A stretch of DNA of 59,911 bases from Actinomycetota bacterium. Lineage in GTDB: Bacteria > Actinomycetota > Actinomycetes > S36-B12. Shown in pieces: positions 26,697-29,911 of the stretch. Position 1 is the first letter of the stretch. Each line of letters begins with the position of its first letter. The stretch is from NCBI GenBank assembly GCA_947449035.1, contig CANFQC010000010.1:1-59911 (forward strand). The letters run 5' to 3'. The position numbers and the translations under genes are program-made. The notes beneath the pieces are model-generated. The model did not search any database, was not told where the DNA came from, and saw nothing but the letters and a program-made list of their open reading frames with translations.

Positions 26697-27488
26697 CTAG
26701 TTGCGTCCGGCCACAATCGCCAGCAATCGCAGGATCTCGAGGTAAAGCCAGATCAGGGTGAGCTCGAGGCCGAAGGCCATTCGCCACGATTCCTTCTCCG
26801 GCAGGCCCATCGCGATGCCCTGCTTGATCGCATCGAAGTCGAGTAGAAGTGTGAACGAGGCGAGCAGCACGCCGGCCGCGCAGAGCAACAAGCCAATACC
26901 GCTGACTCCGTAGAAACCCCATCCGCCACCGACTCCGAAGAGCGCGGCCACGAGAGAGACGAGTCCGATCAGCGCGTAGCTGATGAGGGCAGCAAGCATG
27001 ACCTTCTTGAACTTGCTGCCGACCTTGACGATGCCCGTGGCGTACAAGAAGAGCATGACGCCGAAAGCGGTCATCGTGCCGATCACAGCCTGAAGAACGA
27101 GGCCTTGGTAATTCTGGGCGACGGCGTAGTCGTTGTACCACTTGCTGATGCCACCGAGCATCAGGCCTTCGGCCACTGAGTAGAGCAGCATCAGCGGGAC
27201 AGAGATCTTCTTCTTGAAGGCATTGATCAGGCCGAGAACCATGCCGACGATGGCCGCGCCGATCCAGACGTAAGGCATCGACTCTGCGACGCTCCAGCCG
27301 ACCACGGCGAACACGACCGTGAGCCCGAACATGATCGCGGTCTTGACGATGACGTCATTGAGCGTGACCTTGGCCTCGCCCAGACCCGCATTGGCGATGA
27401 TCGCCGAGAAATCCTTGTCGGCGTCGACCTTCTCGTACTTGGAGAGGATCGGGTTATTGGACTGCTTGTAACGACCGGTGTCTGCCAT
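26697..27488 (-). CDS. Bax inhibitor-1/YccA family membrane protein
   Basis: A 263-residue protein with seven predicted helices, from ATG 27486-27488 (MADTGRYKQSNNPILSKYEK). The family marks include SVPLMLLYSVAEGLMLGGIS and LLDFDAIKQGIAMGLP, with the C-terminal FGLELTLIWLYLEILRLL. Related bacterial proteins act as pH-sensitive calcium leak channels, but the role in actinobacteria is unclear. An upstream frame-matched start at 27521 is less likely. Confidence 0.9.
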   Translation of the reverse strand: MADTGRYKQSNNPILSKYEKVDADKDFSAIIANAGLGEAKVTLNDVIVKTAIMFGLTVVFAVVGWSVAESMPYVWIGAAIVGMVLGLINAFKKKISVPLMLLYSVAEGLMLGGISKWYNDYAVAQNYQGLVLQAVIGTMTAFGVMLFLYATGIVKVGSKFKKVMLAALISYALIGLVSLVAALFGVGGGWGFYGVSGIGLLLCAAGVLLASFTLLLDFDAIKQGIAMGLPEKESWRMAFGLELTLIWLYLEILRLLAIVAGRN

Positions 27489-27545: not shown

Positions 27546-27579
27546 GTGCCCTCGGTGGGATTTGAACCCACACTGTGCC
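27546..27579 (-). repeat. Outer attachment-site copy: duplicated 3' end of the tRNA gene
   Basis: Thirty-four bases identical to 29128-29161, which in the intact tRNA covers the T-arm, the 3' acceptor strand and the discriminator base. Only this 3' third is present, so it is not a functional tRNA. The arrangement is that of an att site left by integration into a tRNA 3' end. The flanks outside the 34 bases differ at once on both sides. Confidence 0.85.
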
Positions 27580-27709
27580 CAGTCGTCCTGGACCGTCCCG
27601 AACCATCCGTGGATGTGTCATTCGTGAGGGGGACGACCCCGATCCGTCCACCGACGTAGCTACGTGCCTAGGGGAGATTGCCGCCAAAATTACGGTCGAC
27701 GAGTTAAAT

Positions 27710-27748
27710 CGGTTCGGTCACCGCAGGAAGCAGCCGAGGACCGAACCG
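27710..27748. repeat. Perfect 10-bp inverted repeat in the island
   Basis: CGGTTCGGTC at 27710-27719 and GACCGAACCG at 27739-27748 with 19 bases between. It lies 36 bases before the GTG of the secreted protein. It could be a regulator-binding site, a recombination-associated stem or a terminator for transcripts entering from the left. Apart from it and the att copy, 27580-27784 holds nothing I can support. Confidence 0.5.
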
Positions 27749-27784
27749 ACGAGCTCCCGCCCACAGCCGCGTTAATGTTGACTT

Positions 27785-28318
27785 GTGAAAAAGTCCAAGA
27801 AGATTGCCCCCGCGGCCTCACTCGTTCTCACTCTGGGCCTGTCAGTCACTCTCTTGAGTGGAACAGCCCACGCCGCTGACACTGCCAAGCCCACGCCGAA
27901 AATCTCCGGTCAACGCTTCGTGTTTATGGAGGGGTTTAACGGGGAGAAACCCTCGACCGTGCTTTATCACTTGACGATACTGAAGAATAATGGGAGTGCT
28001 TTCATCGGAACTCAACGTTTTCGCGACTGCACTAACAACATCGAAAAGTGTAAATCGGAACTCGCAACCGGTACCGGGTGGACAAAGCCCGAGGCCGTCT
28101 TTCTAGTGCGCACATCCTCTAATACATACGTTCTACGTTCACGCGACAGCCAAGGTCAAATCACACTAGGAACGAAAGGGGTGACCAAGGCTTACATGAT
28201 CGGCAGCGGTCAAGCGAAGGCGTCACGAAACATAGACGGAACCCTCGAAAGTCAGGTTTACTCGTGCGCTCCCCCCCCCACTTCTTCGTCTCGTGGGGGG
28301 GACGAATATTACTGTTGA
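27785..28318 (+). CDS. Secreted protein of unknown function (island cargo)
   Basis: A 177-residue protein from GTG 27785. A basic start (MKKSKKIAPAA), a hydrophobic core (SLVLTLGLSVTLLSG) and TAHA before residue 31 form a clear signal peptide. The mature part is about 147 residues, beta-rich by appearance, with Cys in RDCTNNIEKC, YSCAPPP and the final residue. I do not recognise the fold. The C-terminal coding sequence contains the C9/G7 hairpin at 28273-28301. No strong ribosome site precedes the GTG, so translation may be leaderless or the start may differ. Confidence 0.65.
   Translation: MKKSKKIAPAASLVLTLGLSVTLLSGTAHAADTAKPTPKISGQRFVFMEGFNGEKPSTVLYHLTILKNNGSAFIGTQRFRDCTNNIEKCKSELATGTGWTKPEAVFLVRTSSNTYVLRSRDSQGQITLGTKGVTKAYMIGSGQAKASRNIDGTLESQVYSCAPPPTSSSRGGDEYYC
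28273..28301. repeat. Hairpin built from a C9 and a G7 run at the 3' end of the secreted-protein gene
   Basis: CCCCCCCAC (28273-28281) pairs with GTGGGGGGG (28293-28301) over an 11-base loop. The C run is 9 bases long (28271-28279). Homopolymer runs inside a coding region can slip in replication or translation; a one-base change would replace the last 14 or so residues. It may also be a terminator lacking a U-tract, since it ends 15 bases before the stop. Confidence 0.55.
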
Positions 28319-28506
28319 TTATTAGTGAGGGACGCAGGCGAACTCTCTCGAAACCGGAGTTCGAAGCTCTGCACGAAGGTGTCGTCAGCACCTCCTTCTG
28401 CCAATCGGTGCAGACTTGGGTGCACCCCGGCCACGGGTTCGATACGACGCTCGGACCCGAGCGCCCTCACTTCGCCGAATGGTTCGAGCACTGCTGGTGA
28501 ACGCGG

Positions 28507-28953
28507 CTATTTACGGGAGAGCAAAACAATGCCCCACACGCCAAACGCCGCTGACACCACAAACGCACCCAAACCAACAAGCACAAGCGCACCCGCAAAT
28601 GTGTTGCCCTCGGCTTCTAGTTCGCTAAATCCTATGAACGCGTTCACTCCCGTCCATCCGGCATAAAGCGCGACTAGGACGCAAATAATCCCGCCAATGG
28701 TTCGCCCCGTGGAACGCTGCCCGCCACCGTCCGCGGCCCCCCAACCTTTCGTAATTCTGCCGTTCTCAATTCGCACCCACCCGCGACCATCCGCGGCATA
28801 CAAACCCTCAAATTGCCCGGTACCCGGCTTGTAAGTACGACCGTTAATGACGACGGGCTCACGGACAACAACCTCGCCGCCGAGACTCGCCCCACACTTA
28901 CCGCAATAAGCCGCACCCTCCGCGCCTTGCGTGCCACACCCCGTGCAAAACAT
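28507..28953 (-). CDS. Zinc-ribbon membrane protein (island cargo)
   Basis: A 148-residue protein. Residues 1-25 hold a zinc ribbon, FCTGCGTQGAEGAAYCGKCG, with two CxxC knuckles. A central soluble block (GRTYKPGTGQFEGLYAAD) follows, then two transmembrane helices: TIGGIICVLVALYAGWTGV and AGALVLVGLGAFVVSAAFGVWGIVLL. This ribbon-plus-two-helix design is common in membrane proteins of unknown role. The start is ATG 28953 (MFCTGCG). It is convergent with the secreted-protein gene, with 188 bases between that show no convincing gene. Confidence 0.7.
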   Translation of the reverse strand: MFCTGCGTQGAEGAAYCGKCGASLGGEVVVREPVVINGRTYKPGTGQFEGLYAADGRGWVRIENGRITKGWGAADGGGQRSTGRTIGGIICVLVALYAGWTGVNAFIGFSELEAEGNTFAGALVLVGLGAFVVSAAFGVWGIVLLSRK

Positions 28954-29024
28954 CCGAACCCCCGTAGTCAGATCCCAAAGCAAACCTCTGCGGCGAGAGT
29001 ACTCCCCACAGAAAGGAAGGTTTG

Positions 29025-29072
29025 ATGTCAAGAAAGGTGTCGACGCGCCAACCGGTTCTAGACGGCAAGTAG
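29025..29072 (+). pseudogene. Fifteen-codon reading frame with a strong ribosome site, possible gene remnant
   Basis: ATG 29025 follows AAGGAAGG by four bases and encodes MSRKVSTRQPVLDGK before a TAG. A basic start like this, right beside the att repeat, is where an integrase or excisionase gene would normally begin, so it may be the stub of a lost gene. It could equally be a chance frame or a leader peptide. Too short to identify. Confidence 0.25.
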
Positions 29073-29127
29073 ACATTCAACAATGGTGTCAACCGATGAC
29101 CCGCGGGGAATCGGTTCCTCCAGGAAA

Positions 29128-29161
29128 GTGCCCTCGGTGGGATTTGAACCCACACTGTGCC
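29128..29161 (-). repeat. Inner attachment-site copy within the intact tRNA 3' end
   Basis: The right copy of the perfect 34-base direct repeat. It keeps the tRNA gene complete, as usual when an element inserts at a tRNA 3' end and restores it. Confidence 0.85.
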
Positions 29162-29202
29162 GGGTTTAAGCCGGGTGTCTCTGCCAGTTGGACTACAAGG
29201 GC
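29129..29202 (-). tRNA. tRNA with UAA anticodon (Leu by anticodon, but class I structure)
   Basis: A 74-base cloverleaf: acceptor GCCCTTG with CGAGGGC, discriminator A, T-arm GTGGG-TTCAAAT-CCCAC, anticodon loop CTTAAAC reading UAA. The anticodon stem has a C-C pair at its top, and the D-stem has three pairs. The anticodon predicts leucine (UUA codon), yet the variable region is only five bases, while leucine tRNAs carry a long variable arm. CCA is not encoded. Its 3' end is the integration site of the adjacent island. Charging identity is uncertain. Confidence 0.75.
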
Positions 29203-29227: not shown

Positions 29228-29911
29228 TCAGCAGCAGTCGCCGCGTAAGAAGGGCAGGGTGGTGGCCCAGGCCGCTGCGGCGTTGGCAGGCTGGAAGACC
29301 TCGGGACGGTCATCGTTGAAGAAGGCATGGACGGAGTCGGGATAACGCTCCACAGTTGCCGTGCCGCCGTGCGAGTTGATCTCGGCGGTGTAAGCCGCGA
29401 TCGGCGCTCCGGCCCACGACTCGTCGGATTCGGCTGCATGAATGAGAGCCGCCTTGCCCGCATAACGCGACCAGTCCGGTGCGTAATCGGGCCAGGGCAT
29501 TGCCGGATAGAACGCCACGGCGCAGCAGAAGTCATCGCTGACCGTTGGCGCGAGGAGCGCCAGGCCCCCGCCCATGCAAAAGCCGATGACACCGACCTTC
29601 TCGCTGGTCACCTCAGGGCGGGCCAGCAGCCACGGAGCCGCCTGGGCGAGATCCTGGGTGACCTGAGCAATGTTCAGCCCGAGCATGAGCTTTTGGGCCT
29701 CGTCGGGCTCGGTGGTCTGGGCGCCTCGGTAGTGATCGATCGCCAGGGCCACGAAGCCCTCGGCCGCCAGGCGGTCGGCCACGTCGACGATGTGCGGCAC
29801 GAGACCCCACCACTCCTGGATCACGATGACGGCCGGCCCGGCACCACTGGCCGGCAGGGCCAGGTAACCGTCGACCTCAGAGCCGTTGATCGGGATCGTC
29901 ACATTGCGCAT
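29228..29911 (-). CDS. Dienelactone hydrolase family protein
   Basis: A 227-residue alpha/beta hydrolase. The nucleophile is the Cys of GVIGFCMGGGLALL. The triad is completed by Asp in HAAESDESW and His in SVHAFFND. An EWWGL block near residue 33 matches the family's oxyanion region. Dienelactone hydrolases open lactones in aromatic degradation, but many homologues have other ester substrates; here the gene is at the end of a sugar-transport operon, 33 bases after the GH1 gene. The substrate is unknown. Confidence 0.9.
   Translation of the reverse strand: MRNVTIPINGSEVDGYLALPASGAGPAVIVIQEWWGLVPHIVDVADRLAAEGFVALAIDHYRGAQTTEPDEAQKLMLGLNIAQVTQDLAQAAPWLLARPEVTSEKVGVIGFCMGGGLALLAPTVSDDFCCAVAFYPAMPWPDYAPDWSRYAGKAALIHAAESDESWAGAPIAAYTAEINSHGGTATVERYPDSVHAFFNDDRPEVFQPANAAAAWATTLPFLRGDCC

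Follow-up and report, generated by a model that had tools for sequence, protein, structure and literature searches.

The window analysed here is a stretch of 59,911 nucleotides from an Actinomycetota bacterium (contig CANFQC010000010.1; lineage Actinomycetes, S36-B12), and it contains a short island next to a tRNA-Leu(UAA) gene. The features of the locus, each with the evidence used for its assignment, are:

26697-27488, minus strand: chromosomal flank, a Bax-inhibitor-1-like gene (PF12811, E 3.5e-71), a family-wide conserved neighbour of the tRNA.
27546-27579, minus strand: distal att copy, the displaced 34-bp tRNA 3' end (exact repeat; alignment of its flank to the empty site; sequence).
27580-29127, no strand: inserted DNA of 1548 bp, missing from the congener G002 at the exact junction, with a GC content of 0.569 versus a window mean of 0.622.
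27785-28318, plus strand: cargo gene 1, a secreted 177-aa protein with a signal peptide and a predicted lipocalin/calycin-like beta-barrel (ORF; homologues; AlphaFold; Foldseek).
28330-28500, plus strand: remnant, the last ~56 codons of a ~220-aa MBL-fold metallo-hydrolase whose 5' three quarters are gone (blastn match to an MBL hydrolase gene; alignments).
28507-28953, minus strand: cargo gene 2, a protein with a zinc ribbon and two transmembrane helices (Pfam Zn_Ribbon_1, E 8.6e-5, below its cut-off; homologues).
29128-29202, minus strand: tRNA-Leu(UAA), the insertion target, of which the 3' 34 nt (29128-29161) form the tRNA-proximal att copy (ARAGORN; Rfam RF00005, 53.9 bits).
29228-29911, minus strand: chromosomal flank, a dienelactone hydrolase family gene (PF01738, E 4.6e-42; 89% identity in G002).

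The island had been proposed from the sequence because of a perfect 34-base duplication of the tRNA 3' end, and this duplication is indeed exact: 27546-27579 and 29128-29161 are direct repeats that match at 34/34 bp, with a spacing of 1582 bp when one copy is counted. Allowing up to three mismatches, the 34-bp core occurs only in these two copies in the 2.36-Mb genome (87 contigs), which together with the exact identity rules out a chance repeat. The tRNA gene, with anticodon TAA, was first placed at 29129-29202, of which the end was right, whereas ARAGORN sets the start at 29128. The repeat was said to consist of T-arm, acceptor strand and discriminator; it covers the T-arm, the 3' acceptor strand and the discriminator A, and extends further over the 3' strand of the anticodon stem, the variable region and one additional base. 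The variable region of this tRNA (29128-29202, 75 nt) is short and class-I-like, which is unusual for a leucine tRNA, and the same was seen in the relatives examined of this actinobacterial family.

A perfect repeat that starts at the acceptor end and rebuilds the tRNA at the junction is the textbook outcome of tRNA-targeting integrases. Here, the two copies have the same orientation, and rebuilding tRNA-Leu(UAA) with either of them gives an identical molecule. The island is situated on the 3' side of the tRNA, which fits the expectation for an integrase using the tRNA 3' end as attB. The outer flank of the distal copy (GGGCACCA) includes an encoded CCA and matches the ancestral site, whereas the tRNA-joined copy is without encoded CCA, indicating that the ancestral gene encoded CCA and supporting the view that the distal copy is the displaced original.

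The original prediction suggested looking in sister genomes for an empty site with a single core, and such a site is present in the congener G002, which has one 34-bp copy at the precise position between the same neighbour genes (proteins 89-90% identical). When the flanks in the window were joined, they aligned continuously with G002, at 83% across 1805 columns that included 12 gap positions. In other genera the tRNA and the Bax-inhibitor-like gene are just 41-105 bp apart (G003, G016, G018, G034, G097, G007, G026, G013, and G010), and together with the G002 site these direct junctions indicate that the empty state is very probably ancestral. Both cargo genes are missing from both congeners and have a patchy distribution in the family, in line with the proposed foreign insertion. 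The composition of the island also stands out, since its GC content is among the lowest ~0.7% of 1548-bp windows, and the GC3 of its two genes is 0.59, compared to 0.74-0.84 in the neighbours. To place the insertion in time, the flanking genes (n = 2) were compared with those of G002, which gave 0.37-0.52 substitutions per site at third codon positions. An unconstrained 34-bp copy would be expected to have gathered six to nine changes if the insertion dated from the split from G002, whereas none was observed. This comparison suggests that the insertion postdates that split and is younger than roughly half the lineage age, if the distal copy evolved neutrally.

The secreted protein and the zinc-ribbon membrane protein that had been recognised as the content of the island are both there, but a third coding remnant between them (28330-28500) had been overlooked. 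Cargo gene 1 has homologues in the same family only (60-69% in G116 and G118, ~20-30% in others), which stand in tandem in G121 and G122. It gave no match to a known family in Pfam, NCBIfam or PHROGs, and no match to a defence system in PADLOC. The AlphaFold model has an overall pLDDT of 69.9, with a beta-barrel at residues 42-139 that reaches 81-92, and Foldseek returned weak matches to lipocalin-like and designed barrels, the best of which (E 1.1e-3) was a designed barrel; on the basis of this model, a lipocalin/calycin-like beta-barrel is the predicted fold. A phage origin of cargo gene 1 was rejected, as there were zero matches in phages, plasmids and viral contigs. In G118 (G118:C32, L061 7361-8162), a homologue lies between imperfect direct repeats of 31 bp (84%), the distal one of which falls inside a PIN-domain-like ORF, and this locus is possibly another small insertion.

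The MBL-fold remnant is foreign as well as truncated, because the full-length MBL-fold hydrolase that this genome carries elsewhere, and that is also present in most relatives, is only 55% identical to it.

The ORF of cargo gene 2 runs from 28507 to 29076 on the minus strand, and the true start is probably at 28953, which gives a 148-aa protein with an N-terminal zinc ribbon. Homologues were found in G010, G006, and G080 and on a temperate-phage contig, and also in the uncultured actinobacterial MAGs Actinomycetota bacterium K_Offshore_80m_m2_226, Actinomycetales bacterium REEB460, and Actinomycetales bacterium mxb001, which are the nearest named carriers in the public collection. The membrane domain occurs behind other N-termini in G006, where it lies 0.6 kb downstream of tRNA-Ala, in G080, where an exonuclease-like gene and a phage-type amidase are found on the same contig, and on the IMG/VR contig UViG_3300027805_000039, where it is located on the strand opposite to both a tyrosine integrase and an amidase. 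The sharing of this domain with temperate phages indicates a gene pool of phages or mobile elements as its source and suggests that cargo gene 2 is a phage-associated accessory gene, the product of which perhaps acts at the host membrane. A family of two-helix membrane proteins was also noticed on actinophage-like contigs (L117 4986-5333 and L088 1346-1669), on the opposite strand near the amidase endolysin. These proteins had no PHROG or Pfam match, and the family is a candidate superinfection-exclusion or lysogeny gene. The attP of phage contig L117 gave no match over 13 nt to the tRNAs of the genome studied here.

As the original prediction stated, the island is without an integrase: no recombinase gene was found among its ORFs, nor were genes for phage packaging, satellite functions, integration or transfer. 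A cognate tyrosine integrase was likewise lacking from the rest of the assembly, in which only two PF00589 proteins were detected, identified by context and NCBIfam score as XerD, encoded between the alanine dehydrogenase gene (ald) and parA, and XerC, encoded beside dprA and rpsB and scoring slightly under the curated cut-off. Apart from these two housekeeping enzymes, the genome offers no candidate for moving the island, but an integrase could lie in an assembly gap, as completeness is 97.7% and the genome is split into 87 contigs. A search for arm-type integrase sites at the island ends yielded short palindromes only. The att core was absent from IMG/VR viral contigs, in its exact and two relaxed forms, and in none of the other genomes of the order (166 searched) did two copies of a 29-bp core occur on one contig. 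No other repeat-flanked tRNA with this cargo was found, a search for a larger intact relative of the element returned none, and no other long tRNA-flanked island was present up to 15 kb downstream of the other tRNAs of this genome, where contigs allow. Two of these other tRNAs, tRNA-Gly(CCC) (L259 9569-9796, G000:C18, minus strand) and tRNA-Ala(CGC) (L253 74-160, G000:C37, plus strand), are followed by a REP-like unit (GGAGGAGC..GGAGCGAYGG), in two tandem copies in the case of tRNA-Gly(CCC). The unit ends in the 3' end of its own tRNA (15 nt for Gly and 13 nt for Ala, 158 and 88 bp downstream, respectively), and among 368 kb of the genome it was found only after these two tRNAs.

In most relatives within the family, the site at tRNA-Leu(UAA) is either empty or occupied by unrelated single genes. 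Many hold 0.4-3.7 kb of unrelated genes, usually one, without a tRNA repeat (G001, G021, G022, G096, G104, G108, and others), and the ORFs of those occupied sites in the family that were examined included no recognisable integrase. Compared with its congener G003, G119 (L150, G119:C64) has a precise, independent insertion of 624 bp at the 3' end of tRNA-Leu(UAA). It includes 11 bp of displaced acceptor end (GTGTCCCCGGT) and a single gene, which encodes a 160-aa membrane protein that matches nothing in Pfam, and it too has no integrase. In G018, an 11-bp displaced acceptor end lies 18 bp from the tRNA, also without an integrase. Small integrase-less insertions have thus probably occurred more than once at the end of this tRNA gene; the two 11-bp cases are weaker evidence than the 34-bp case.

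The duplication, the precise insertion, the empty site, the lack of an integrase and the truncated gene are direct observations, and the reading that we consider likely is that the island is a CIME-like remnant, formed by tyrosine-integrase integration and subsequent internal deletion. A mobile element with the tRNA-Leu(UAA) 3' end as attB would have entered through the conservative, site-specific recombination that tyrosine integrases catalyse. Because its attP would have carried the last 34 nt of the tRNA, integration would have restored a complete tRNA at the element end and moved the original 3' end away to 27546-27579. Internal deletion would then have removed the integrase and most other genes and left the present 1.58 kb, in which two cargo genes and part of a third lie between the att copies. 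Such a remnant might retain its mobilisability, and its movement would now depend on an integrase acting in trans, or on a newly inserted neighbouring element that takes the remnant with it in cis, as in a CIME. The original prediction offered either a decayed element or a satellite moved in trans. The truncated foreign MBL-hydrolase gene inside the island favours decay, and this gene and the missing integrase support a loss of DNA, whereas the satellite option gained no positive support from the gene content or from the viral contigs. The perfect att copies speak against decay in one respect, because they make the island young, and either most of the DNA was lost quickly or the element arrived small; the MBL gene could also have been acquired in its truncated form. 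Since no larger intact relative was found, the ancestral element and its integrase are themselves inferred.

A rival reading is a non-autonomous mini-island, i.e., a minimal satellite or cassette that consists of attP and cargo only and that is integrated and excised in trans by a co-resident integrase targeting tRNA-Leu(UAA). We regard this as unlikely, although the youth of both perfect att copies, the unrelated one-gene insertion in G119, the displaced end in G018 and the lack of recognisable integrases at the examined occupied sites in the family speak in its favour. Against it are the failure to find an integrase with a matching att core, the absence of that core from viral contigs and of a second core copy on one contig in the other genomes of the order, the lack of the same cargo at another repeat-flanked tRNA, the absence of packaging genes, and the truncated MBL gene, which argues for decay. 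A broader version, which we consider rather doubtful, is that integrase-less mini-cassettes, each 0.6-1.6 kb long and carrying one or two genes, dock at tRNA-Leu(UAA) in this family and rely on resident-phage integrases to move them in trans, in which case the islands in the present genome (G000, 34-bp att) and in G119 (11-bp end) would be independent examples and form a tRNA-targeted counterpart of integrase-less gene cassettes.

The repeat-free single genes in many relatives imply that gene uptake without a tRNA duplication also occurs at this site, and the island might then be a scar left when genes were gained through homologous or illegitimate recombination in a permissive intergenic hotspot, the duplication of the tRNA 3' end being a by-product. 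The 13-15 nt of tRNA 3' end beside the REP-like repeat downstream of two other tRNAs could be taken in the same sense, but the other duplications reach only 11-15 bp, and 34 perfect bases that run from the acceptor end, rebuild the tRNA and lie exactly at the empty-site junction make this explanation improbable. An assembly or binning artefact, conceivable in a MAG-like assembly of 87 contigs, or a tandem tRNA relic unrelated to insertion is very improbable, since the usual reads are longer than the 34-bp repeat, which lies in the middle of its contig, synteny with relatives extends to both sides of the island, and a tandem relic fails to explain the 1.5 kb that is missing from the empty site.

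Returning to the CIME-like remnant, the closest known systems are the CIMEs, which are defined by the loss of integration and transfer genes with attL and attR being kept (PMC5704250). The island shares with them the two att copies around cargo, here identical, the missing integrase and transfer genes, and the location at the 3' end of a tRNA gene (PMC5704250). It differs in its length of 1.58 kb, far below ICE or IME size, in having no trace of an ICE or IME backbone (no ICE or IME genes were found in it, and temperate phages are its sole context link), and in the lack of an adjoining ICE or IME for mobilisation. Functionally, the island is thus CIME-like, while descent from an ICE or IME is conjectural. 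With the islands collected in Islander it has in common that an intact tRNA and a displaced 3' fragment in the same orientation downstream mark the ends, but Islander accepts only islands that contain an integrase gene, and the lengths of its islands peak at 13.6 and 39.9 kb, so that the island described here is about a tenth of that size and lacks the required gene (PMC4383910). Phage satellites (PICI, PICMI, and Tycheposons) are likewise small, integrated and, if mobile, helper-dependent, but they carry genes of their own, whereas none of the three coding features of the island is an integrase, replication, packaging or capsid-remodelling gene (PMC11389934). In the non-autonomous MITEs and CALINs, which derive from transposons and integrons, recombination sites have also been kept and the enzyme lost (PMC11389934); the sites of the island are the tRNA 3' end, and not terminal inverted repeats or attC sites. 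The island had been put forward as something undescribed, which was too strong, as integrase-less att-flanked remnants are already known as CIMEs; its small size and the recurrence at one tRNA are what make it mildly interesting. For an uncultured actinobacterial family, it provides a clean, base-precise case of how small a tRNA-integrated element can become without losing either of its perfect att sites, and island finders that demand an integrase or a minimum length would miss it. Should the island be mobilised in trans, few transferable units that target tRNAs would be smaller, and it would help to account for the entry of single genes into streamlined genomes at fixed hotspots.
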